DNA from: Halorussus salilacus
Lineage (GTDB): Archaea > Halobacteriota > Halobacteria > Halobacteriales > Haladaptataceae
Direction: 5' to 3'
Length of the DNA: 58,754 nt
NCBI RefSeq assembly: GCF_024138125.1
Contig: NZ_CP099996.1
Coordinates: forward strand, 1-58,754
This document shows, one piece after another, positions 14,765 through 57,556 of the stretch. Within the stretch, counting starts at the first letter, position 1. Each line of letters begins with the position of its first letter. Both the position numbers and the translations under genes were made by a program. The notes under the pieces were generated by a model that saw only the letters and a list, made by a program, of their open reading frames with translations, had not been told where the DNA came from and ran no database searches.

Positions 14765-15499
14765 ATGACTGATTCTGGCACAGCAGCGATAGTCACGGGC
14801 GCGGCGAGCGGCATCGGCCGCGCCCTCGTGAACCGACTGTCCGACTCGTTCGACGTCGTCGCCTGTCTGGACGTCGCCGAGGCGGTCCACGAGGTTGCAG
14901 ACGGCGCCGACGGTGCTATCGGATACCGGACCGACGTGAGCGATCACGAGGAAGTCCGGAGCGTCGTCGACGCGGTCGAGGAACGGGCCGAGACGACCGC
15001 GGTCGTCAACAACGCTGCAGTCTCGCGGTATCAGTGGATCGGTGACCTCGAACCCGACGAGTGGCAACGGATACTCGACGTCAACCTCACCGGCCAGTAC
15101 AACGTCGTTCACGCCGTAGCGACGCGGATGTACGAGCGCGAGCGCGGTACCATCGTCAACGTTTCGAGCGGTGCGGGGAAGTTCGGGAGCGCGAGCGCGG
15201 GCGTCCACTACTCCGCGTCGAAGGCGGGCGTCTTCGGGCTCACGCGGGGCCTCGCGAAACAACTTGCGCCGCACGTCACCGTCAACTGCGTCGTCCCCGG
15301 GCTCATCGATACGCCGCTAGCGACGGACTCGGACCTCTGGACCGAGGAGGAACTCCGGTCGTACGTCGAGGACCTCCCACTGGAGCGGCTCGGCGACCCG
15401 GACGAGGTCGCCCGCGTCATCGAGTTCCTCTGTAGCGACGGCGCGTCCTACATGACCGGAAGCATCGTCGATGTCGACGGTGGGGCCGCGCTCGTCTGA
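14765..15499 (+). CDS. Short-chain dehydrogenase/reductase (classical SDR)
   Basis: NAD(P)-dependent SDR of 244 residues: TGAASGIG cofactor loop, NNAAVS, catalytic Ser in NVSSGAG and the YSASKAG Tyr/Lys motif. The nucleotide-binding strand is followed by an Asp (ACLDVAE), suggesting a preference for NAD. It lies about 100 bases after the CoA-transferase and may oxidise the hydroxyacyl-CoA made by the MaoC enzyme, though its substrate is not evident. It converges on the M28 peptidase gene with only 4 bases between the two stop codons. This enzyme differs clearly from the SDR at 7223. Confidence 0.85.
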   Translation: MTDSGTAAIVTGAASGIGRALVNRLSDSFDVVACLDVAEAVHEVADGADGAIGYRTDVSDHEEVRSVVDAVEERAETTAVVNNAAVSRYQWIGDLEPDEWQRILDVNLTGQYNVVHAVATRMYERERGTIVNVSSGAGKFGSASAGVHYSASKAGVFGLTRGLAKQLAPHVTVNCVVPGLIDTPLATDSDLWTEEELRSYVEDLPLERLGDPDEVARVIEFLCSDGASYMTGSIVDVDGGAALV

Positions 15500-15503
15500 C
15501 GGC

Positions 15504-17246
15504 TCAGGCGTGTCGGTCGACGAACCGCCGGGCTACTTCGGTCGCTCGTCCGACGCGGTGAGCGAGGCGGTTGCGACCGCGTCGAACCGAGGTTTCGGCG
15601 AACCGGCGCTCGCGGCCGGACAGCTCCGGGAGTTCCTCGGCCACCCGCAGATACGGGAGCCGTTGGTGGGGAAGGGCCGGGTCGTGTCCGTATTCTTCGC
15701 TCTCCATGTACAGTGCCGGAACGAGGAGATTCCCCAACTCCACTTGCAGGTCCTCGGCGTCGGCGGCCAGTTCCGGGTCGGACTCCGCGCGATTATCGAT
15801 CAGCGCGTTCGCGTCAGCGACAGTCGCTTCGAGGTCGTCCAGCGCACCGTGAATCTCGTCGAACTCCCGCTCGGCGGCGGACTCGATGTCCGAGAGGACG
15901 GTTCGAATATCCTCGACGGCCGCCGTGTAGTCGTGGGGAAGGACTGGCGAGTAGCCGAAGCGTGCCGCCAGCGCGACGTATACCCGGGTTTCCTCGACTA
16001 ACACGTCCATGTCGACTTTGTCTCGGGTGTCCTCGGGCGTGTGCCACCACCACCCACCACCGATGGGGCCGCCCTCGTCGGTCGCGGGGTCGAGCCGCGC
16101 CCCCGAGAGGAGCGAACTCAGCCCCGCGCCCCAGAACGACTGGTCGGAGTTGCGCGCGGGCCGTCCAGAACTCCCGAGCCAGCTCTCGTCGTCGTCGCGG
16201 AGCGGGAGGTCGGTCGCCGACTCGATGGCGTCGAGGTGCTCGTCCTCGAGTTCGGCCATGTGCTGGAACCAGATGCTGTCGGCCCCCTTCAGGCCGTTGA
16301 GGTCGACGTGGAGGTAGCAGACGCCGTTCTCGCGGAGGTCGAGCCACTTCTCGTCGGCGTACCACGCGCTACCCGCGTATCGGCCCGTCGAGTGGGCGGG
16401 CCAGAAGCCGAACACCAGTCCGCGGTGGGGGTCTTCGTCTGCCTCGGCGACGACCCGCGCTACCTCCATCGTCGCCGCCATCGCGGTGGCGTTGTCGGTG
16501 ACGCCCTCGTACCACGAGTCGACGTGGTTTCCCATCACCATGTAGCGGTCGCTCCCGGTCCCCTCGATGCGGCCGACGGGACACGGAAGCGTGGTCAGTT
16601 CGGTCGTCACCTGCGTCCGTATCGTCGCTTCGACCGGTCCCTCCTCGGCCTTCTCGCGGAGCCACTCCCCGTCGGAGTCGGTGACCTCGACCACCGGGAG
16701 GTCGGGAATCCGGTCGGCGTCGTCCCGGGACGGCGTCCCCCAGATGGGAGTGACGATCATCTCGTGAAGGTGCTCGCCGCCGAGCGACTCGAAGACCACG
16801 CCCGCGGCACCCGCCGCTTCGAGGTCGAGGATGGGTTCTGGAGTCGGCAGGCCCCGGGTCAACACCAGTTTGTCTGCCACGTCCGCGGCGGCGAGGGCGT
16901 CCTCGGAGAGTTCGGGGACGTGGACGACTTCGCCGTCGACCCCGGACGGCGGCGTGCTCGCGCCGAACGAGGTGGTGATGGCTTGCGAGATATCGCGCTT
17001 TTCCGGCGTCGTGACCGTCATCTCCGCCTCCTCGGGAGTGCTGATGAGCGCCTCGAACTCGAGTATCTCGGCGTCGACGCCGTACTCATCGAGCTTCTCG
17101 ACGACGTACTCGCTCGCTTCCCACTCGTCTTGAGTCCCGGAAACTCTGGCGAGGTCGTCGAAGACATCGAGATGAGCGTCCATCTCGTCGGCGTCGATCC
17201 GCGACTGGAGCGTCGACTCCGCGTCTCGATTGATAGGGTCTAGCAT
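15504..17246 (-). CDS. M28-family peptidase with PA domain, variant active site
   Basis: Protein of 580 residues from the ATG at 17246 (LDPINRDAESTLQSRIDADE). A PA-type insert lies around LVLTRGLPTPEPILDLEAAG, followed by the M28 fold: GNHVDSWYEGVTDNATAMAA supplies the usual His and Asp metal ligands, and WWWHTPEDTRDKVD the C-terminal His. At the position of the canonical Glu-Glu pair the sequence is FWPAHSTGRYAGSAWYAD, so the catalytic Glu and ligand Glu are absent. The paralogue at 25747-27516 shares this. No signal peptide is seen, so it is probably cytoplasmic. The C-terminal 110 residues are helical. It may be an aminopeptidase or amidase of unusual chemistry. Confidence 0.8.
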   Translation of the reverse strand: MLDPINRDAESTLQSRIDADEMDAHLDVFDDLARVSGTQDEWEASEYVVEKLDEYGVDAEILEFEALISTPEEAEMTVTTPEKRDISQAITTSFGASTPPSGVDGEVVHVPELSEDALAAADVADKLVLTRGLPTPEPILDLEAAGAAGVVFESLGGEHLHEMIVTPIWGTPSRDDADRIPDLPVVEVTDSDGEWLREKAEEGPVEATIRTQVTTELTTLPCPVGRIEGTGSDRYMVMGNHVDSWYEGVTDNATAMAATMEVARVVAEADEDPHRGLVFGFWPAHSTGRYAGSAWYADEKWLDLRENGVCYLHVDLNGLKGADSIWFQHMAELEDEHLDAIESATDLPLRDDDESWLGSSGRPARNSDQSFWGAGLSSLLSGARLDPATDEGGPIGGGWWWHTPEDTRDKVDMDVLVEETRVYVALAARFGYSPVLPHDYTAAVEDIRTVLSDIESAAEREFDEIHGALDDLEATVADANALIDNRAESDPELAADAEDLQVELGNLLVPALYMESEEYGHDPALPHQRLPYLRVAEELPELSGRERRFAETSVRRGRNRLAHRVGRATEVARRFVDRHA

Positions 17247-20409: not shown

Positions 20410-20489
20410 GCGTCCCCGGCCGGTAGGTGGCGACCGTCCCCGGTTGGTAGCGGGTCTCAGGTGCGGCTCACTACGCCACCAGACCGCTT

Positions 20490-21449
20490 TTATCGGAACT
20501 CGGGCATCACGCGGTCGGCGAACAGTTCGATACCGGTGGACTCCGGGAAGTCGACGAACTCCAGAACGACCTCGTCCACCCCGAGCTCCTCGTAGGCCCG
20601 CAACTCCTCGGCGACCTGTTCGGGCGTTCCGATGAGGTTGTTGAACGACGACAGCGGATCGTCTTCGTCCGGGTCGCGGAACCGGGGAACTTCGTCGAGG
20701 ATTGCGTCGACTTCCTCCTCGGTTTCGCGGACGATACAGCGGGCGAACCACGACGTATCGATTTCGTCGAAATCGGTTCCGTACGTCTCGCAGTGGGCCG
20801 CGAGGACGTCGAGTTTCTGCTCGATGACCTCCGGCGGTCCCCAGTAGTTCCACTCGTCGGCGTGCTTGGCTACGATGCGGAGGGTGAACTCCTCGCCACC
20901 GCCGCCGACCATGACCGGCGGATGGGGGTCCTGCGTCGGATGCGGTCTACTGACTGCGTCCCGAAGCTCGTAGTAATCGCCCTCGTAGGTCACACTGTCT
21001 TCGGTCCACAGCCGCTTCGTCAACTCGATGGTCTCCTCCATCGCTCGTAATCGGTCGGGCGCGTCGGGCCAGTCGTACCCGAACGCGAGGGCCTCGTCCT
21101 CCTTCCAGCCAGCACCCATCCCGAGTTTGAATCGTCCGTCGCTGACGTTGTCGATGGTGGCGGCCGCTTTCGCGAGTAGCGGTCCGTGCCGGAGCTCGTT
21201 GTTGATGGTCTTCGGGAACAGCGTCACCGTCTCGGTTTCCCGAGCGAGGGCGGTGAGCGTACTCAGACACTCCGTCGTCGCTCCGTCGCCGGTCATCAGG
21301 TGGTCCGGGACCGCGACCCCGTCGAAGCCGACCGATTCGGCGAGTCGTGCGTAGCCGCGTTGCTTTTTCCAATCGATTGAATCGCAGAACGCGAGCATCG
21401 AGTACTCGGACGCTCCCGCGCTGGTCGGAACGTTTACTCCAAAACGCAT
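20490..21449 (-). CDS. LLM-class (luciferase-like) F420-dependent oxidoreductase
   Basis: TIM-barrel oxidoreductase of 319 residues. The N-terminus MRFGVNVPTSAGA, the ESVGFDGVAVPDHLM motif, LFPKTINNELRHGPLLAKAA and RFKLGMGAGWKEDEALAFG are diagnostic of the bacterial luciferase/F420 family. Haloarchaea make F420, so F420 is the likelier cofactor than FMN. The C-terminal half has LIGTPEQVAEELRAYEELGV, the usual closing helix motif. The gene is convergent with the M19 dipeptidase, and its substrate is unknown. An intact start ATG at 21447-21449 gives the conserved N-terminus. Confidence 0.88.
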   Translation of the reverse strand: MRFGVNVPTSAGASEYSMLAFCDSIDWKKQRGYARLAESVGFDGVAVPDHLMTGDGATTECLSTLTALARETETVTLFPKTINNELRHGPLLAKAAATIDNVSDGRFKLGMGAGWKEDEALAFGYDWPDAPDRLRAMEETIELTKRLWTEDSVTYEGDYYELRDAVSRPHPTQDPHPPVMVGGGGEEFTLRIVAKHADEWNYWGPPEVIEQKLDVLAAHCETYGTDFDEIDTSWFARCIVRETEEEVDAILDEVPRFRDPDEDDPLSSFNNLIGTPEQVAEELRAYEELGVDEVVLEFVDFPESTGIELFADRVMPEFR

Positions 21450-47453: not shown

Positions 47454-47912
47454 ATGTCGGTCCCGCATCCAGGTGGTGATCCGAATGCGAACCTCTACGC
47501 CCAACTGAAGCGAGACGTCCTCGACCGTGTTCCACAGATCACGGCGGTCGAGTTCGTACCTGACGATATCGAGGCCAAGCAGTTGCGGGCACGTTTCAAT
47601 CCGAACCGTCTGGTTCCCCCAACGGGCCCTGATTCGCCGGAACTGACCGTCAAGTGGTATCGGCAGGACCCTCACGATTGGTTCCGTATCAACTACACCG
47701 ACCCGAACACGGGCTTTTACGCTGGCTGGCACCAAGACGAAGACCATCCCGATTTGGGACAGACGCATTTCCAGTACTCAGTCGCCGATACGGAGGACCG
47801 CTGGGGGATCACATTCGAACACGAGACCCCCTCCCTGATTCTCTGGGAAATCGTCGAAGAGCTCCTTGAGGATGTCCGTCCGACCTACCAGTACGCAAAC
47901 GAGGAACTATGA
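47454..47912 (+). CDS. Hypothetical protein, second gene of integrase module
   Basis: A 152-residue acidic protein that I cannot assign. A short helical N-terminus (LYAQLKRDVLDRVPQITAVE) is followed by an aromatic-rich beta region (VKWYRQDPHDWFRINYTDPN and FYAGWHQDEDH) and a C-terminal helix. It overlaps the integrase start by 4 bases and follows the winged-helix gene by 4 bases, so the three form one transcript. Its conserved place suggests a module-specific role such as DNA binding or integrase control; no motif proves it. Confidence 0.65.
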   Translation: MSVPHPGGDPNANLYAQLKRDVLDRVPQITAVEFVPDDIEAKQLRARFNPNRLVPPTGPDSPELTVKWYRQDPHDWFRINYTDPNTGFYAGWHQDEDHPDLGQTHFQYSVADTEDRWGITFEHETPSLILWEIVEELLEDVRPTYQYANEEL

Positions 47913-49138
47913 AACCCCGAGAACACGCCGATCAGTCACTCGCAAGTTCCTTCGAGCGTTACCTCCAGGACAAGGGGAAAGGCCGTGGTGGCGATGGCGG
48001 GAACTACCGACGCAACGCTGCGCGCGAGCTCGAGCGGTTCGCCGAGTGGGCCGCCAGCGACCGCGGCGACGACGACTGGACCGGGATCGTCCCCGACGAC
48101 GTCGACCGCGACCCCACCTTCGAGGACCTCGACGAACGCGTCTTCCGGGACTACGCCCGGCATCTCGGTGGAGACCGAGGACTCAAACAGAACACTGTCC
48201 AAACCTATTATCGCTATATCTCTGCGTGGTGCGGGTGGTGTGTCAACGAGGGATATCTCGAAGCGCACTACGCGCAGCGGGCGAGTGCGATGGCACCGCT
48301 GCCGGAGGACGACGGCCGCAAGCCCGGTGACCAGCAGGCTTGGACATCCGAACAGCGCCACGCCCTCACCCGGCACGTCGAGGAGCGAGCCCGCGACGCC
48401 GTTGAGGCGTACACGACACTCCCAAAGGATACTGACCCCATCGACAAGCAGCGAGCCCGCTACGCGGCGATGAAAGCGGCTCGTGACCGGGCTCTTGTGT
48501 TCGTCCTCGCGTACACGGCTGTCCGCGTCGGTGAACTCCTCCGGGACCCGAACGACCCGCGCCGTCGCGGCGTCCGCTGGGAGGACCTCTCGCTCGACGA
48601 TGGGAGTATGGACGTCTACCGGAAGAAACAGCAGTGGGACGCCGCCAGTCTCCCCGATCCGGTGATCTCACCGTTGCGGAGCTACCGCAAGCTGATGGAC
48701 CCACCGACAGAGCGCTGGCCGGTGTTTCCGACGTTCGACCAACGGACGCTTGCAGGGCTCACCAAGGATGAGCTAGCCGGCCGAGGGGAACGCTCGGGGG
48801 CAATTACTGAGCGCCGTGAGGAGTACGCTCGCGACCTACTGCTAGCGCTCGATGAGAATATTCGGCCGCCGTCGATCACGACGGACGGCGCACGGTCGAT
48901 TCTCCAACGGCTCTCGGAGGCCGCGGACATCGATATCGACCATCCGAAACACGATTACCTTGCTCCACACGGTGGTCGACGTGGAATGGGAGAGGTCCTT
49001 GTCCGTGCGTTCGGATACACGGTAGCGGCCCGTTATCTCGATAATTCCGAGGAGATGGTGCGGGAGCGGTACTCTCACATCGAGGCTGGCGAACTCGGTG
49101 ATGTGGCGACAGAGGCGCTCTCAGAGATCGATGGGTAG
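47909..49138 (+). CDS. Tyrosine recombinase / integrase
   Basis: XerCD/phage-type integrase of 409 residues. The N-terminal SAM-like DNA-binding domain covers residues about 10-120 (SFERYLQDKGKGR, FRDYARHLGGDRG, TVQTYYRYISAWCGWCV). The catalytic residues are Arg206 (AVRVGELL), Lys in DVYRKKQQW (about 242), His354-x-x-Arg (HGGRRG) and Tyr388 (RERYSHIEA). It would integrate or excise a mobile element or resolve dimers. Its start overlaps the preceding gene by 4 bases. No matching attachment-site pair was found by eye, so the element's extent is unknown; the copper island lies to its right. Confidence 0.9.
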   Translation: MKPREHADQSLASSFERYLQDKGKGRGGDGGNYRRNAARELERFAEWAASDRGDDDWTGIVPDDVDRDPTFEDLDERVFRDYARHLGGDRGLKQNTVQTYYRYISAWCGWCVNEGYLEAHYAQRASAMAPLPEDDGRKPGDQQAWTSEQRHALTRHVEERARDAVEAYTTLPKDTDPIDKQRARYAAMKAARDRALVFVLAYTAVRVGELLRDPNDPRRRGVRWEDLSLDDGSMDVYRKKQQWDAASLPDPVISPLRSYRKLMDPPTERWPVFPTFDQRTLAGLTKDELAGRGERSGAITERREEYARDLLLALDENIRPPSITTDGARSILQRLSEAADIDIDHPKHDYLAPHGGRRGMGEVLVRAFGYTVAARYLDNSEEMVRERYSHIEAGELGDVATEALSEIDG

Positions 49139-50394: not shown

Positions 50395-51036
50395 CTAGGT
50401 CCCGATTCGAGTCACCCGCCGATATCCTTCGTACAGGGCTGGTAATCCGAGAGGAAGTGCGAGGAATCCAAACCCGAGAAGGGCATACTGGTCTGTATCC
50501 CGGTGTCGCATGACGAGGATGGTCGTGACGATGCCGAATAGCGCAATGACGTATGCGGTGTTGGTCCAGAGTACGTCGTAGGTCGAACAGTACAGCCAGC
50601 AAACGAACGTGTAGGCCGGGGCGTTCCAGGTCGGTGGATAGAGGTTCGGCCAGAAGAACCGGCAGTACGTGGTCCAGCCCAGCATCGCAATAGTCGGCAA
50701 CCCAACGAGCCACACCGCAGTCCCACGATTCAAATCTCCGTATCGTCGGTATCCCGCGAGGAAGAGAGCGGGAAAGCAGAAGACCCACAGCCAGATGCCG
50801 ATGGTGTAGGTCACCGGCCAGTGCTGGATTCGGGGCTGTGCAACTGGAAGCCGTACTGACTCGGGAAGCGTCGCCCACGGAAACGAGGGGTCGGGAACTG
50901 GATTCGTGAGGAACGCGATTAGACAGAGTCCCGTTCCGACAAGGAATCCGTACAATCCCAGCGTCGTGTATCGGTCAAGCCACGCTGGAAGTTGCGGACG
51001 GGTCGACTGTTGACGGTGATCGGAGACGCCGACCAT
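50395..51036 (-). CDS. Hypothetical polytopic membrane protein
   Basis: A 213-residue protein with about five hydrophobic helices (for example LGLYGFLVGTGLCLIAFLTN, IGIWLWVFCFPALFLAGY, TAYVIALFGIVTTILV). The N-terminal 20 residues are polar. I do not recognise a family. It is co-directional with the CPBP gene (121 bases) and follows the SHOCT gene by 23 bases, so it may share a transcript with the latter. Trp and Tyr residues are frequent at helix ends. Confidence 0.65.
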   Translation of the reverse strand: MVGVSDHRQQSTRPQLPAWLDRYTTLGLYGFLVGTGLCLIAFLTNPVPDPSFPWATLPESVRLPVAQPRIQHWPVTYTIGIWLWVFCFPALFLAGYRRYGDLNRGTAVWLVGLPTIAMLGWTTYCRFFWPNLYPPTWNAPAYTFVCWLYCSTYDVLWTNTAYVIALFGIVTTILVMRHRDTDQYALLGFGFLALPLGLPALYEGYRRVTRIGT

Positions 51037-51059
51037 GCTTCAACTTCGTCTGGCCGTGA

Positions 51060-51431
51060 TCAGGTATCTCGTTCGAGTGCTTCGCGTCGCTGTTCGTATT
51101 CCTCGTCAGTCAGCTCCCCGCGCGCGTAGGCGAGCCGAAGCTCTTCGAGTGCTTGGTCTGAGTCACTTGCATCCCCTGTAATCGCGCGATAGATGAGGTA
51201 CCCACCACCGACGAGGGCGGCGAGGAACAGTAATTGCATCACGATGCCGACGATGAATATCCAGCCAGGCATCGTCCCGTCGCCCCACATGTGACCGCCC
51301 CACGTACCACCCATCATCGGACCGAATCCCATCATTCCGAAGCCCATGAAGAACAACGGGAAGATGAATACGGCGCCGATGATTACGAGGAGGAGCGTAA
51401 CAAGTCGCGTATCGTCTGTTTTCGTAGGCAT
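51060..51431 (-). CDS. SHOCT-domain membrane protein (first of two)
   Basis: A 123-residue protein from the ATG at 51431. Two hydrophobic helices (LVTLLLVIIGAVFIFPLFF and IFIVGIVMQLLFLAALVGGG) bracket a Met/Gly-rich segment (GFGMMGFGPMMGGTWGGHMW). A C-terminal SHOCT motif follows (LEELRLAYARGELTDEEYEQ). SHOCT domains mediate oligomerisation. The Met/Gly/His segment could touch copper, in keeping with the neighbouring genes. It is divergent from the YHS permease with about 180 bases between. A similar protein is encoded at 54327. Confidence 0.78.
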   Translation of the reverse strand: MPTKTDDTRLVTLLLVIIGAVFIFPLFFMGFGMMGFGPMMGGTWGGHMWGDGTMPGWIFIVGIVMQLLFLAALVGGGYLIYRAITGDASDSDQALEELRLAYARGELTDEEYEQRREALERDT

Positions 51432-51611
51432 CTTGTATCCCTCCGTGAGTTTGGGCCTCAACTAATACTACGCACTGACTATTCAATGCGGTTGTGCCTT
51501 CGATCTGTGCCTTCTGGCCCTCGCTTTTCTTTTGAATTCTCACTTTTCACGGCTCTGACCCGAACTATCTGAGCGGAAACTGCAATAGGTACTCCCTTCG
51601 AAACGATATCT

Positions 51612-53006
51612 ATGGTGGCGACGATGATTGATGGCATCTTCGAAGCGCTACGTATCGGTGTGGGCTTCCTCTGGACGGCGGCGTGGGCAATCATCATGGG
51701 CCTCACGATCACGAGTCTCGTCCAGGTCTACGTCTCCAAGGAGCGAATGGCACAGGTGCTGGGTGACGGTGATCTGAGCGGACTCACCAAGGCGACTGCG
51801 TTTGGCGCGGCGAGTAGTGGTTGCAGTTTCGGCGCTGTCGCCATCGGAAAGGGGTTGTTCAAGAAGGGCGCCCACGCGGTGAACTTTCTCGCGTTCATGT
51901 TCGCGTCGACGAACCTCATCGTCGAACTCGGTCTGATGATCCTCATCCTGCTTGGCTGGGAGTTCCTCGTTGCGGAGTTACTCGGCGGGCTCATTCTCAT
52001 TGCCGTGATGGCGGTGATCGTCCACTTCACGCTCCCCGAGAATCTCTTCGACGAGGTCCGGGAGACGCTCAACGACCGCGACCGTGGGAGGGGCGTCACC
52101 GAAGATCCGACCTGTGGGATGGAGGGCAAAGACACGTATTCTCTCACGACTGACGGCGGTGAGACGCTCAAATTCTGTTCAGAGGGCTGTATGGAGACGT
52201 ACTTACAGGAAACGTCGAGCCGCGGCGGATGGCGCGACGAACTACTGTCGTGGGGTGGCTGGTACAAGGTCGGGAATCAGTACCGCAAGGAGTGGTCGAT
52301 GATCTGGAAAGACGTCATCGCTGGCTTCCTCATCTCGGGGTTCGTCATCGTCTTCGTCCCCCAGTGGGTGTGGAACACCCTGTTCATTCAGGGCGACGGG
52401 CTGCTCGTGGTTGCCGAGAACGCGATTATGGGTGTCGCCATCGCCGTCGTCAGCTTCGTCGGGAGCATGGGTAATGTCCCGTTCGCCGTCGCCCTCTGGG
52501 GCGGCGGAATCAGCTTCGCGGGTGTCATCGCGTTCGTCTATGCCGACCTCATCACGATTCCCGTGTTGAACGTCTACCGGAAGTACTACGGCTGGAGAAT
52601 CATGCTGTACATCCTGGGCGTCTTCTTCGTGACGATGGCCTTCACGGGCTTCCTCATGGAACTGCTGTTCGACGCGCTGAGTATCGTTCCAGATTTGGCG
52701 GGTGGCGAGACGGCGACCGAGCAGACGTACTTCGAGCTCAACTACACGTTCTACCTCAACATCGTTGCGTTCGCGCTCTCCGGATTTCTGCTGTACGTCT
52801 ATCGACGCGGTCTCGGTGCGCCCGGCCAGTACCGCGATCCCGTTTGTGGCATGCGGGCCGACGACAGCGAGCCATCGGCGACGTACGACGACGAAACGTA
52901 CTACTTCTGCTCGCAGACCTGCAAGGAGACGTTCGAAAAGAACCCAGATGAATTCACGAATCAACATCCGGAGGCGGGAGCGTCTCAAGGTCATGACCAC
53001 CATTGA
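51612..53006 (+). CDS. Permease with two YHS metal-binding domains
   Basis: Membrane permease of 464 residues. The PF03773-type core is split in two. Helices 1-4 hold AFGAASSGCSFGAVAIGKGL, and helices 5-8 follow a loop. That loop carries one Cys-rich module (DPTCGMEGKDT, then FCSEGCMETY). The second module ends the protein (DPVCGMRADDS, YFCSQTCKETF, GHDHH). Both match the YHS/TRASH type that binds copper or other thiophilic metals. The permease is therefore a candidate metal exporter with its own sensors or chaperone sites. It starts the rightward heavy-metal island and ends 131 bases before the membrane-bound regulator. Confidence 0.85.
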   Translation: MVATMIDGIFEALRIGVGFLWTAAWAIIMGLTITSLVQVYVSKERMAQVLGDGDLSGLTKATAFGAASSGCSFGAVAIGKGLFKKGAHAVNFLAFMFASTNLIVELGLMILILLGWEFLVAELLGGLILIAVMAVIVHFTLPENLFDEVRETLNDRDRGRGVTEDPTCGMEGKDTYSLTTDGGETLKFCSEGCMETYLQETSSRGGWRDELLSWGGWYKVGNQYRKEWSMIWKDVIAGFLISGFVIVFVPQWVWNTLFIQGDGLLVVAENAIMGVAIAVVSFVGSMGNVPFAVALWGGGISFAGVIAFVYADLITIPVLNVYRKYYGWRIMLYILGVFFVTMAFTGFLMELLFDALSIVPDLAGGETATEQTYFELNYTFYLNIVAFALSGFLLYVYRRGLGAPGQYRDPVCGMRADDSEPSATYDDETYYFCSQTCKETFEKNPDEFTNQHPEAGASQGHDHH

Positions 53007-53137
53007 ACACCGACTCGAGATATCGAATCCGTGGGGTTGTCAGCCCCGTGATCGCGTTGGCCAATCAAAACTGGTACAGCAATGTCTCACGAACTCACAC
53101 ACATGAGCAAGTGTCTCGGCGGATCGAGGTGGAGAAG

Positions 53138-53731
53138 ATGAACCGACGGCAAGCCGATACAGTAGTCAGTGCCTTGGTCGTTGCCGTCATCATCCTCGGC
53201 GGTGTACTCAGCTGGCAAGCGTACCAGCAACAGCAGGCCTTCGAGCAGATGGGATCGATGATGGGCACGTCGATGGGCGCGGTTCACGGGACGAACCCAC
53301 TCTTGTACGTTCTCGGAACTCTTCTCGTCTCGGCTGTCGTTGGTGGTGGCTATCTCGTGGTTCGGGACGAGCTCACTAGCACAGAGGTAACCGGTCGCTC
53401 ACAGACTGAGATGGCGAATCCAACCACCTCTGAGAACACCGAATCGCAGGAAGGGACCGTTCAATCAGCGGGGAAGGTCAATCCGGAGTCTCAGCCACAG
53501 GCCCGCGTATTGGACCTCTTGCCGGAAGACGAACGCCGTATCCTCGAACCAGTCATCTCCTCGCCCGGCATCACACAGATCGAATTACGAGATCGCTCGG
53601 ACTTCTCGAAGAGCAAGGTCAGTCAGACGGTGAGTGCTCTCGAGAAGCGCGGCCTCCTGTACCGCGAGCGCCAAGGGCGGACGTATCGCATCTATCCGAG
53701 CGACGACTTACAACAGAAACAGGCGAACTAG
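53138..53731 (+). CDS. Membrane-anchored winged-helix regulator
   Basis: Regulator of 197 residues from the ATG at 53138. Two transmembrane helices (residues about 8-26, VVSALVVAVIILGGVLSW, and 53-72) enclose a Met-rich, His-containing loop (FEQMGSMMGTSMGAVH). A polar linker leads to a C-terminal winged helix (LEPVISSPGITQIELRDRSD and SKVSQTVSALEKRGLLYRER). It looks like a one-component sensor: an outside metal-sensing loop joined to an inside DNA-binding domain. Earlier in-frame starts are unlikely because they overlap the permease 3' end. Confidence 0.78.
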   Translation: MNRRQADTVVSALVVAVIILGGVLSWQAYQQQQAFEQMGSMMGTSMGAVHGTNPLLYVLGTLLVSAVVGGGYLVVRDELTSTEVTGRSQTEMANPTTSENTESQEGTVQSAGKVNPESQPQARVLDLLPEDERRILEPVISSPGITQIELRDRSDFSKSKVSQTVSALEKRGLLYRERQGRTYRIYPSDDLQQKQAN

Positions 53732-53951
53732 CAATTCTACTGCAGACCCAGAACTGTTCGGAACCGTGGTCGTGGTCCTGTCCCGAGAGAAGGGTCGAGT
53801 GCCAACCCGGCGAATTCGAGGCGGATGAACGGTTCTATTCCTGAAAAACGGTTAGAGCGCCCTATACACGTTCTCGAACGTTCTCCTGTTCGGATTCACA
53901 CCCACGTCGATAACTCCCGAGCAGTCCTACGAGTAACCGAGGAGAAAGACA

Positions 53952-54272
53952 ATGACCAACTTCAAACTCGGTCGGTGGCTGCTCGTGGCCCTCGCAGTTG
54001 TCGGACTCGCGTTCGCCGCCTCCGTGGTCGGGGCACACGGCAACGAAACGACCGCAGACGACGCGCCCACGGACGATGCCACCGCAGATGAATGGGCCAC
54101 TTGGATGGAGGCGCAGATGACCGAACACATGGGCCCTGGTAGCGTCGAGTGGATGGAGTCGCACATGGGGGTGACCGTCGACGAGATGGCCCAAGACATG
54201 GCTGACGAGGAATACCACGGCGGGGCTGACGACGAGTACCACGGCGGAATGTACGGGCAGGGCCACTGCTGA
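53952..54272 (+). CDS. Secreted Met/His-rich protein, probable copper binding
   Basis: A 106-residue protein. The N-terminal Sec signal (KLGRWLLVALAVVGLAFAAS) is followed by an Asp/Thr-rich linker. A Met-rich helix region follows (WATWMEAQMTEHMGPGSVEW, then MESHMGVTVDEMAQDM) and the tail HGGADDEYHGGMYGQGHC. Met and His clusters of this kind bind copper or silver in secreted chaperones. No known family is recognised. Its place between the membrane regulator and the SHOCT and CopB genes supports a metal role, as inference. Confidence 0.7.
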   Translation: MTNFKLGRWLLVALAVVGLAFAASVVGAHGNETTADDAPTDDATADEWATWMEAQMTEHMGPGSVEWMESHMGVTVDEMAQDMADEEYHGGADDEYHGGMYGQGHC

Positions 54273-54326
54273 CGGCCCTGACCGTTTCGATTGCTTCGAC
54301 CGAACACCGCGACTCACAAACTCAAG

Positions 54327-54686
54327 ATGATGACGCAACTCACCACTCACGTCGGACGCACTGCTCGTCGACTCGTGATATTCGCGGTCCCGTTGCTGGT
54401 TGCGGCGACTGGAACGGCCGTCGCCCACGGCGGCGGGAGCTACGGCGGCGGGATGATGGGCGGAAGCGGCTGGGGCCTCTTCGGCGGAGCGATGGGGCTC
54501 TGGGGACTCCTCTGGATGGGACTTCTCATTGCTGTCCCGCTCTACGTGGTCTATGCGCTCCTCAACCGAGAATCCAGCGGGAACGATGAGCAGTCGTTGT
54601 CGGTTCTCCGCGAGCGATACGCTCGCGGTGAGCTCTCGGACGATGAATTCGAACGGCGGCGAAAACGGCTCGAACAATCGGAGTGA
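54327..54686 (+). CDS. SHOCT-domain membrane protein (second)
   Basis: A 119-residue protein, started at the ATG at 54327. A signal-like helix (LVIFAVPLLVAATGTAVAHG) is followed by a Gly/Met-rich segment (GSYGGGMMGGSGWGLFGG), a second helix (LWGLLWMGLLIAVPLYVVYA) and the SHOCT motif LRERYARGELSDDEFERR. Its layout mirrors the protein at 51060-51431, so the two are paralogues flanking the permease and regulator. The last 44 bases overlap the start of the next gene. Confidence 0.78.
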   Translation: MMTQLTTHVGRTARRLVIFAVPLLVAATGTAVAHGGGSYGGGMMGGSGWGLFGGAMGLWGLLWMGLLIAVPLYVVYALLNRESSGNDEQSLSVLRERYARGELSDDEFERRRKRLEQSE

Positions 54687-54894
54687 TCATCCGCTATGGT
54701 ACCAACGGCATCACACGCAGTTACTCCTGTATATCGCCGCCAGCTTCGCACTGGTCGGGCTTGGCGGTCTCCTCAAGGGTGTACTCTTCGAATTCCTCCG
54801 GGTGTCAATCTTCGAAGCGGGATTCGTCGCAGTACTCGTCACCGCAACCGGAATGCTGTCTCTCTTCTACGCCCTGTATGCCCCGAAACCCTGA
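54643..54894 (+). CDS. Small membrane protein overlapping the SHOCT gene
   Basis: An 83-residue frame starting at ATG 54643 inside the SHOCT 3' end (frame +1). It begins MNSNGGENGSNNRSDHPLWY. Two hydrophobic helices follow (LLLYIAASFALVGLGGLLKG and GFVAVLVTATGMLSLFYALY). The helices are convincingly membrane-like, whereas the overlap part is Asn/Ser-rich and could instead be untranslated with a non-AUG start closer to 54700. Translation is probably coupled to the SHOCT gene. Function is unknown. Confidence 0.55.
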   Translation: MNSNGGENGSNNRSDHPLWYQRHHTQLLLYIAASFALVGLGGLLKGVLFEFLRVSIFEAGFVAVLVTATGMLSLFYALYAPKP

Positions 54895-55051
54895 GTATTC
54901 GAGACACCCATTCGACAAGCGGCTTCTCCACGTCATTTCCGGTTCGAAGCCGGTACTGTTCGGACTATCTTTGTTCTCGATAGTGTAGGACCGCAGTGAG
55001 TATTATCGAAGGGGCAATCCGCTAAAGAGAGGGGACCGTATGTATCCCTGT

Positions 55052-55228
55052 ATGACCACGACCATCACCGTGGACGGAATGTCGTGCGGTCACTGTGAGC
55101 AGACGGGCGAAGAGGCGCTTCAAGAGGTCTCCGGAGTGACTGACGTGATTGCCGACGCTGGTCCTGCTGTACCGTTTCAGGGGCGAAGATTCAGGAAGCT
55201 GGCGGGTCCACCTGTAAAGAGAATATGA
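55052..55228 (+). pseudogene. Truncated heavy-metal-associated (CopZ-like) chaperone
   Basis: The frame starts TTTITVDGMSCGHCEQTGEE, with the GMSCGHC metal site of CopZ/HMA domains, and continues through ALQEVSGVTDV. After residue about 36 the family pattern is lost: the frame turns into DAGPAVPFQGRRFRKLAGPP and stops at 58 residues without the second half of the domain (normal length about 65). It is therefore probably a decayed gene, although the metal-binding loop remains and could in theory still bind copper. It ends 3 bases before the CopB-type ATPase start. Confidence 0.65.
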
Positions 55229-55231
55229 TCC

Positions 55232-57556
55232 ATGGACGACCACAAAGATACAACTGAGAATCCCCCGGCGGGTGAACACCAGCAGGGCGACAGCAGTCAC
55301 CAGCACGACCACGGCGAGCACGATGAAGCGGCGGCCGAGGCTGACGAACAACGGGTAGAACAGGAGCTACTGGAGGAGGAGGCTCACCCTGGTGCGGAGA
55401 GTGAGCTGGCGCCCGACGAGCAGCACGAGCACGCCGGACACGAGGGCGAAGGGCACGGCCACGGTTCCCGCGAGGGCCACGGCGAAGGTCATGGTGGTAT
55501 GCACGAGGGCCACGAGCAGATGTTCCGCAGGCGCTTCTTCGTCTCGACACTCCTGTCGATTCCCGTCCTCCTGTACAGCGAACTGCTACAGGAGTGGCTC
55601 GGGTTCTCCGTCCCAGCGTTCCCGGGGAGCGAATGGATCAACCCCGTCTTCGCGGTCATCGTCTTCGCGTACGGTGGGGTGCCGTTCATCCAGATGGCGG
55701 TCCCGGAGCTCAAAGACCGGTCGCCGGGGATGATGACGCTGATCTCGATGGCAATCACCGTCGCGTTCGTCTACAGCCTCGCGAGCGTGGTCTTCCCGAC
55801 GCAGTCAGCGTTCTTCTGGGAGCTCGTGACGCTGATCGACATAATGTTGCTTGGCCACTGGATCGAGATGCGGTCCGTACGCCGGGCCTCGAGCGCGGTG
55901 GACGAACTGGCGAAGCTGATGCCGGATACCGCCGAGCGCATCACCGAGTCCGGTGACACCGAGGATGTCCCTGTCAGTGAACTCTCCGAGGATGACCTTG
56001 TGCTCGTCCGGCCGGGGGCGAGTGTCCCTGCTGACGGCATCGTCGAGGAGGGTGATTCGGACGTCGAGGAGTCGATGATTACGGGCGAGTCGAAACCGGT
56101 TTCGAAGGAACCTGGCGATGAGGTCATCGGCGGGACGATCAACGGCGACGGTAGCCTCCGCGTGCGCGTCGGTGCGACGGGCGAAGAGACGACGCTCGCG
56201 GGCATCATGCGCCTCGTCGAAGAGGCCCAGCAGAGTAAATCCAAGACACAGGTGTTGGCCGACCGCGCGGCTGGCTGGCTGTTCTACGTCGCGCTCGGGG
56301 CGGCGGTCGTGACAGCAATCGCGTGGACGCTCGCAGTCTCGTTCGACGCGACCGTCATCGAGCGCGTCGTGACGGTGCTCGTCATCGCCTGTCCACACGC
56401 ACTCGGGCTCGCCATCCCCCTCGTGGTCGCAATCAACACGTCGCTCGCCGCTCGGAACGGGATGCTCGTTCGCGACCGCATCGCGATGGAGGACGCGCGG
56501 AATCTGGACGCGATTATCTTCGACAAGACGGGGACGCTCACCGAAGGTGAACACGGCGTCGTCGACATGGCGACCGTCGACGGCGTCGGCGAGGATGACG
56601 CACTCCGTTTGGCGGCCGCTGTTGAGAGCGACTCCGAGCACATGATCGCGCGAGCCATCCGGGAGGCCGCCAACGAGCGAGACCTCAGCGCCCCTGATGC
56701 GACCGATTTCGAGGTGATCAAAGGTCGAGGCGTCCGCGCGACCGTCGACGTCTCCGGCTTCGCCGGAGGCTCGTCGGACGAGTCCGACGGTGGAACCGAG
56801 GTGTACGTCGGCGGGCCGAATCTGTTGACCCAACTCGAGAGCGAGATGCCGGACCATCTCCAGCGCTTCGCTGACGAAGCCGGTCAGAACGCCCAAACGG
56901 TGGTGTATCTCGTTCGTGACGGAGAGTTGGTCGCCGCGTTCGCGATGGCCGACGTAATCCGCGAAGAAAGTTTCCGCGTCGTCGACACTCTCCACGATCT
57001 GGGCATCGAGGTCGCGATGCTGACTGGCGACTCCCGGGACGTCGCTGACGCTGTCGCCGACGAACTGGGCATCGACACGGTGTTCGCGGAGGTCCTTCCC
57101 GAAGATAAGGACGAGAAAGTCCGGGAGCTCCAGGACCAGGGGAAGCTCGTGGGGATGGTCGGCGACGGCGTCAACGACGCACCGGCGCTGACGCGAGCCG
57201 ACGTCGGCATCGCTATTGGGAGCGGCACCGACGTTGCGGTCCAGTCGGCGGACGTCATCCTCGTCCAGAATAACCCGATGGACGTCGTCCGGCTGGTCAA
57301 ACTGAGCAAGGCAAGCTACCGGAAGATGCAAGAGAACATCGTCTGGGCGGCCGGGTACAACGTCTTCGCGATTCCGCTTGCAGCAGGCGTGTTAGCTCCA
57401 ATCGGGATTCTGCTGTCCCCCGCGGTGGGCGCTCTCCTGATGTCGCTGAGTACAGTCATCGTCGCCATCAACGCCCAGCTCCTTCGGCGCGTGGACCTGT
57501 CCATCCCCGAGCTTCAAGGCGAGACACCATCTACGGAGGCACAGCCCGCTGACTGA
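55232..57556 (+). CDS. copB: CopB-type P1B-ATPase, heavy-metal (copper) exporter
   Basis: P-type ATPase of 774 residues. The N-terminal 95 residues are His-rich, with [16 protein letters not shown] repeats replacing an HMA domain. Catalytic motifs are TGES (actuator), Asp431 in DKTGTLT (phosphorylation) and [10 protein letters not shown]. The transmembrane metal site is Cys387-Pro-His (ACPHALGL), the CPH form of the CopB/P1B-3 group that moves Cu(II) or Cu(I). The P1B nucleotide-binding SEHP motif reads [20 protein letters not shown] near the end belongs to the same subgroup. The truncated copZ is directly upstream. Confidence 0.93.

Follow-up and report, generated by a model that had tools for sequence, protein, structure and literature searches.

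A predicted membrane-bound, MarR-like regulator with a methionine/histidine hairpin and a candidate operator array in haloarchaeal metal islands

The window considered here, the whole stretch of 58,754 nucleotides of Halorussus salilacus DNA that was analyzed, carries an island of metal-related genes in whose midst lies a gene for a small putative membrane-bound regulator. The features needed below are the following, with coordinates of the window:

51060..51461, minus strand: SHOCT protein, encoded divergently from the permease, whose two hydrophobic helices enclose a Met-rich loop
51612..53006, plus strand: ArsP-type permease with a C-terminal YHS domain, directly upstream of the regulator
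53063..53078, plus strand: conserved regulator promoter block, AATCAAAACTGGTACA
53103..53141, plus strand: 12-codon upstream ORF with an ATGA overlap with the regulator start
53138..53731, plus strand: regulator of 197 aa, in which an acidic linker connects a two-helix Met/His hairpin to a MarR-like (DUF7343) winged helix
53216..53296, plus strand: predicted outside loop of the regulator (codons 27-53), with candidate ligands Met38, Met41, Met42, Met46, and His50
53495..53713, plus strand: winged helix of the regulator (codons 120-192), the most conserved part of the family
53828..53885, plus strand: candidate operator in a conserved upstream block, with four ACGnT repeats at 53829, 53848, 53868, and 53878
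53952..54272, plus strand: secreted Met/His-rich protein of 106 aa with a hydrophobic N-terminus, the likely direct target
54291..54686, plus strand: SHOCT protein behind the target, possibly cotranscribed with it
55232..57556, plus strand: copper-type P1B ATPase carrying the motifs CPH and MSLST, with 16 His among its first 100 residues

We take the ATPase to be CopB-like. A small frame with an HMA (CopZ-like) domain at 55040-55228 seems truncated, in that relatives match its first 35 residues only, with a Pfam coverage of 29 of 62 positions.

The regulator frame opens with an ATG at 53138, closes with a stop codon at 53729-53731, and encodes a product in which two helices enclose a Met-rich loop and are joined to a winged helix. 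This arrangement had been proposed by a sequence-only reading of the DNA, and it is confirmed by hydropathy, AlphaFold2 modeling, and Pfam searches. In 19-residue windows, the best hydropathy is found for starts at residues 5-12 and 55-58. The AlphaFold2 model, computed from 46 sequences (the window protein and relatives; mean pLDDT, 71), places helices at residues 3-41 and 54-87 and the winged helix at about 120-192, the latter with 10-residue pLDDT means of 76-92 over residues 121-190. The loop, of which FEQMGSMMGTSMGAVH forms residues 35-50, is poorly modeled in its block 41-50 (mean pLDDT, 56), and the linker, which is about 50 residues long and differs in sequence among relatives, is modeled as disordered, with pLDDT below 50 at residues 82-116. 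The DUF7343, MarR_2, MarR, and HTH_24 models of Pfam all score above their cutoffs (37.5 against 27.6 for DUF7343, 33.5 against 27 for MarR_2, and 25.6 against 24.6 for MarR); across the family, at an E value of 0.001, DUF7343 and MarR_2 are found in 56/56 proteins and MarR in 55. Foldseek likewise returns MarR proteins as the top matches of the model, and VIA-align gives Z scores of 10.5-11.9 across 62-88 residues in the 50 rows displayed. The single-chain model flanks the winged helix by short helices only (120-127 and 189-192), and no MarR-type dimer interface can be clearly made out from it. Pfam detects no TRASH domain in the regulator, and two NCBIfam models, checked for the CopY/TcrY and ArsR/SmtB types of metal repressor, stay below their cutoffs there, namely, CopY_TcrY (15.2 bits against 121.95) and HTH_metalloreg (23.2 against 55).

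That this architecture is not a chance product follows from a second copy elsewhere in the same genome, with 84% identity, and from the presence of the regulator in 61 of the 194 genomes of the class. At an E value of 1e-6, 80 of these genomes match, some through the winged helix alone; the count of 61 two-helix carriers was taken from the match rows and includes a genome with a broken frame (G140) and a few with a stop inside the match, and three with a partial match only (G182, G127, and G187), which have no copy of the array described below, are not among them. Of the 34 plasmid records that match, 28 assign the protein to the MarR family, four leave it unannotated, and two have no gene there. 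On the tree, the window protein clusters with proteins of another family, coded f5, rather than with those of its own, so that the cassette has probably passed from one haloarchaeal family to another, as judged from these sequences. A viral origin was considered and rejected, with no phage match and none confirmed in viral contigs. An integrase-like gene (47909-49138) lies near the island, and two named plasmids also annotate integrases beside theirs; carriage by an integrase as a rule was discarded, the window's integrase being near only 3 of 55 family loci.

The chemistry of the loop can be read from an alignment of 56 distinct haloarchaeal proteins. Seven of the 69 family loci fetched were dropped as partial or doubtful (L061, L068, L071, L072, and L105-L107), and alignment A1 dropped seven more, these being copies with internal stops (L039, L040, L053, and L102-L104) and one identical row. 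M42, G51, P54, Y72, and R76 are invariant; His50 is kept in 51 of the proteins, M38 is Met in 50 and falls in a gap in 6, position 41 holds Met in 51 cases and His in 5, and position 46 is Met in 42, His replacing Met at both 41 and 46. No Cys was counted in any segment of the 56 proteins. On average, the loop has 4.25 Met and 1.3 His in 27 residues and the winged helix 0.04 Met, and the recognition region of the latter is nearly invariant. Exchange of Met and His without Cys fits the chemistry of Cu(I) or Ag(I). Covariation of the loop with the downstream protein was also considered as independent evidence: the seven His-rich loops accompany downstream proteins whose His share is 0.76-1.0, compared with 0.25-0.80 for the 22 others. 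We rejected it, as the tree explains the His loops by only two changes and five Met loops (L044, L055, L062, L063, and L064) have His-rich downstream partners.

The charges around the hairpin bear on which side of the membrane the loop occupies. Lys plus Arg is higher in the inner flanks than in the loop in 52 of the 56 proteins, equal in 1, and lower in 3, and some family loops have several Arg directly after the first helix. By the positive-inside rule, the loop is thus predicted to lie outside the membrane, as the sequence-only reading had it, and not in the cytoplasm. The three proteins that break the rule are what speaks for a loop that faces the cytoplasm or a winged helix that serves protein contacts only; with the other 52 in agreement, two helices that put a cytoplasmic winged helix opposite the loop, and the near invariance of the recognition region, we regard such readings as very improbable.

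The genes around the regulator point in the same direction as its loop. Within about 7 kb per side, contig permitting, at least one metal-island gene is near 51 of the 55 family loci, compared with 3 of 20 control loci; the controls are 20 of 22 weak winged-helix matches (G126 and G087 were left out), and their protein architecture was mostly not seen, 14 of the 20 being impossible to display. Homologues of the 53952 protein and SHOCT2 are each near 36 of the family loci, a copper-type ATPase is near 26, the permease near 24, YHS near 23, plastocyanin near 14, and multicopper oxidase near 9. In each of the four loci without island genes, a Met/His-rich ORF adjoins the regulator. More generally, a Met/His-rich ORF with a hydrophobic N-terminus follows within 600 bp downstream at 30 of 55 family loci and at 0 of 20 controls, and the secreted gene of the 53952 type occurs in 44 genomes, 42 of which also have the regulator. 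The islands of the named plasmids combine multicopper oxidase or plastocyanin with DUF302, SHOCT, HMA, P-type ATPase, and AsnC-family regulator genes, with a TRASH domain confirmed in one of these AsnC-family regulators. An AsnC/TRASH regulator is near 6 of the 55 family loci, where it may serve the ATPase; thus, both kinds of regulator can co-occur.

These neighbors also weigh on what the loop might sense. Met is easily oxidized, and the permease upstream belongs to the ArsP family, for which other toxic ions are possible; hence the loop might respond to Met oxidation, to another soft metal such as mercury, or to membrane stress. We consider this unlikely, as the replacement of Met by His at 41 and 46 suits ligation better than oxidation, and the neighbors include multicopper oxidase, plastocyanin, and copper-type ATPases. 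Cu(I) or Ag(I) is the signal that we favor.

A candidate site of action lies between the regulator and the secreted gene. About 140 bp ahead of the secreted gene at 53952 is strongly conserved among relatives and includes the array, whose repeats are spaced by 19, 20, and 10 bp. Counted from ACGTTCTCGAACGTTCTC, on which one of 50 sequences could not be anchored, ACGnT stands at -39, -20, 0, and +10 in 31, 32, 32, and 34 of 34 regions upstream of 53952 homologues and at the same offsets in 14, 12, 12, and 14 of 15 distant regulator loci. An 18-mer used as a search motif for this element gave best matches that sum to 62 mismatches in 19 distant loci, against 138 for shuffles in 2-base blocks. 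Sixteen of the 19 have it with at most 5 mismatches, L048, L059, and L060 with 7 or 8, and in L065 and L067, two of the sixteen, it is no better than the best of their 60 shuffles; nothing resembling the array was seen in L059 and L060. The conserved block is probably noncoding, judging from its substitutions. A small protein encoded in the leader was rejected, with a synonymous fraction of 0.284 against 0.267 expected in the ATG frame and stops in several homologues; two other frames, one forward and one reverse, have 0.32-0.33 against about 0.24. A structured RNA was rejected as well, there being no consensus fold, and the only Rfam match over 50800-55300 is far below the cutoff and outside the leader.

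The distribution of the array follows that of the regulator. With at most 3 mismatches, the pattern has 60 sites in 55 of the 194 class genomes, and a reversed control pattern has none in the 194; all 55 belong to the 61 regulator genomes, and the remaining 133 have no site (Fisher p = 5e-42, without correction for shared ancestry). Of the 60 sites, 59 share a contig with a regulator copy and 44 lie within 1 kb of one, start to start; the regulator position counted on contig C14 of G049 is a remnant, and a whole copy is also present in that genome. At this threshold, the pattern is absent from 6 of the 61 regulator genomes, among which G033 and G141 (loci L047 and L052) have the 18-mer with 2 mismatches and G090 with 1. 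The 18-mer is exact in 15 genomes, every one with the regulator; at 1 mismatch only, it occurs in 20 genomes, 6 of them without the regulator. On contig C2 of G105 (14854-15689; L053), a regulator copy with an internal stop has an array on each side, in opposite orientations. The linkage of regulator, array, and target amounts to a strong association, not proof of binding, and the co-occurrence of array and regulator may reflect one inherited cassette.

Direct control of the island, which the sequence-only reading had put forward as a possibility, finds a narrower basis in these sites. It gains a candidate array before the secreted gene, and no such array precedes the permease, ATPase, or regulator gene. 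An exact copy of the anchor motif ACGTTCTCGAACGT occurs once in the window, at 53868, and none lies ahead of any of those three genes. Looser copies, with up to 3 mismatches, number 30 in the window against 15.5 expected, the best of these having 2 mismatches and lying off the island promoters. An operator shared by the whole island was therefore rejected for the window.

The regulator and permease promoters have features of their own. AATCAAAACTGGTACA has two exact copies in the genome, each before a regulator copy; ACGTTCTCGAACGT and AACTGGTAC also have exactly two exact genome copies each, always before the same gene. AACTGGTAC is exact at one island promoter only, that of the regulator, its other two island matches having 1 mismatch and lying inside the permease and ATPase genes. 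The conserved promoter block sits 26-40 bp ahead of the ATG of the 12-codon ORF. In 65 of 90 distinct relatives, the ORF begins at exactly -35. This ORF is a possible leaderless start with translational coupling to the regulator, as suggested by its position and overlap. When the permease start and the ATG of the 12-codon ORF are aligned over 22 loci, with one locus lacking that ATG excluded, the number of matching positions between the two promoters is 7.8 of 16 at zero offset and no more than 6.2 elsewhere, and the short element that they share (AACTG) differs from the array.

This agreement in register could mean that the protein governs itself and the permease via AACTG, the array being read by another regulator or representing a core promoter with a leader; physical linkage could then account for the co-occurrence. 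The probability of this alternative appears low to us, as none of the 133 regulator-less genomes has the array and the array persists in distant lineages with a different downstream protein. Furthermore, one array lies off the regulator's contig yet in a regulator genome: contig C17 of G193 has no regulator, and its array is 67 bp ahead of a second copy of the secreted gene, the two together occupying 20483-20945. Array and gene copy together make a possible target in trans, and we continue to regard the array before 53952 as the candidate site of the regulator.

Taken together, these observations lead us to view the protein as probably a transmembrane one-component sensor of extracytoplasmic Cu(I)/Ag(I) that switches a neighboring metal-binding gene. 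We infer the identity of the metal and its binding, the topology, dimerization, DNA binding, and the sign of control, and the proposed course of events is the following. The two helices would hold the loop outside, where Met38, Met or His41, Met42, Met46, and His50 would make up a site for a soft metal, to which both chains of a dimer perhaps contribute. On binding the metal, the hairpin would change its arrangement such that the tethered MarR-like winged helices become paired or oriented; these would act at the array (53828-53885) and thereby set the output of the secreted gene at 53952, as well as that of the SHOCT gene behind it, if one transcript is common to both. The metal might either activate the target or release repression.

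The long, variable, and disordered linker is also compatible with a different course, in which metal or membrane damage leads to proteolysis in the linker and the freed winged helix then acts on the array. This, too, we hold to be improbable: no conserved protease partner is seen, nor was a conserved cleavage motif noticed in the linker, and release by the neighboring CPBP protease was rejected, the gene of the window's CPBP protease being near only 1 of the 55 family loci. A winged helix that stays tethered to its hairpin is the form in which we retain the proposal.

The architecture is also found beyond the haloarchaea. A search of the phylum at an E value of 1e-12 matched 30 of 294 genomes; 13 are outside the order, all of one family (f14) that is probably Archaeoglobaceae, and at 1e-15, 18 of the 55 genomes of that family match. 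DUF7343 is above its cutoff in all five f14 proteins tested, and in the f14 proteins two hydrophobic segments enclose loops of the HH..MMM type, for instance SHHYMMMGPYY. Among the 26 matches, 18 show a Cys-free Met/His loop and 7 a loop that contains Cys, the last one being a fragment; the Cys loops may mark a different metal. Thirteen loci were examined for neighbors: L251 has a His-rich P-type ATPase and DUF411 nearby, L259 and L262 have ATPases with HMA domains, YHS is found near L262, and COX2-like proteins are found near L261 and L262; some, such as L252, have no metal gene nearby. By sequence, the f14 family shares the architecture of the haloarchaeal regulator with a different Met/His loop, and several of its copies lie beside copper-type ATPases. 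Comparison thus lends good support to the original suggestion of a one-component membrane regulator with a metal-reading outside loop, through the conserved Met/His ligand positions, the predicted topology, the neighborhood, and this second family.

A further likeness lies within the island itself. Both SHOCT proteins, at 51060-51461 (minus strand) and 54291-54686 (plus strand), have a Met/Gly-rich loop between two hydrophobic helices. In island SHOCT proteins more widely, two helices surround a Met-rich loop and the second resembles that of the regulator, the 51060 type through GGGYL..R; a profile comparison over 32 columns gives 92% probability and an E value of 5.7e-7, and a single pair of window proteins, SHOCT and regulator, aligns over 19 residues at an E value of 1e-4. 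The stretch is a short one, and likeness of this sort arises readily between membrane helices. The hairpin shared with these SHOCT outputs may be an exchangeable metal-reading module.

The general design has precedents. Transmembrane regulators that unite a DNA-binding domain and a transmembrane region in one chain (TTRs) are an established kind, with 1,384 in archaea according to the portion of a census available to us (PMC10269533). The regulator, with a predicted DNA-binding domain and at least one predicted transmembrane region in one chain, has this architecture as far as sequence and model indicate. It has in common with TTRs, as described in that portion, the one-chain design, which would here likewise act from the membrane, and it adds the Met/His hairpin, the MarR-like winged helix, and the proposed array; the words metal, copper, MarR, and halo- are absent from the main text of the census. 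Similar in design, from what the consulted part of its account gives, is ArnR/ArnR1 of Sulfolobus acidocaldarius, an archaeal membrane-bound one-component regulator that also has two transmembrane segments and has inverted-repeat target boxes, answers starvation, and controls archaellum and pili (PMC6396743). However, ArnR has an N-terminal HTH, then HAMP-like and sensor domains, and C-terminal transmembrane segments, an order that is reversed here.

The archaeal copper regulators described in the excerpts that we draw on are of another type: VNG1179C and CopR are AsnC/TRASH regulators of copper ATPase genes, VNG1179C being described as cytoplasmic (PMC3551603, PMC7830388). They read the metal by a cytoplasmic TRASH domain, whereas the present regulator has no Cys and a loop predicted to lie outside. 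In CusS of the CusRS system, His and Met residues on the periplasmic side, among them a Met triad in a flexible loop, take part in copper sensing according to the sections consulted (PMC10100754), yet CusS is a histidine kinase with a separate response regulator rather than a single chain. The winged helix is what the regulator shares with the MarR family and DUF7343, from which it differs by the membrane hairpin in front. The accessible part of a study of Haloferax alexandrinus reports that silver switches on copA, copZ, an lrp gene, and the genes for a SHOCT protein and a COG0701 permease (PMC10694973), and the word MarR is absent from the main text of that study; the portion seen of a copper survey of Haloferax mediterranei describes no such regulator (PMC9240420). 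DUF7343 was not found in the literature text searched, and no archaeal membrane one-component copper sensor was found in titles and the starts of abstracts, a scope that left out most subscription papers. The kind, TTR, is thus known, and no description of a metal-sensing archaeal variant was found in the literature searched.

We therefore propose, tentatively and at somewhat less than even confidence for the claim as a whole, an undescribed archaeal class in which a Met/His hairpin on a MarR winged helix reads outside Cu(I)/Ag(I) and acts on a four-repeat array before one secreted gene, present in haloarchaea and a second family, with the hairpin maybe an exchangeable module. If this is true, outside-metal sensing in archaea would be directly testable in genetically workable haloarchaea, with a likely DNA site and target at hand. 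At about 27 residues, the hairpin loop would make for a very small metal sensor in the membrane, and the regulator would be a useful system in which to study the switching of a tethered winged helix.
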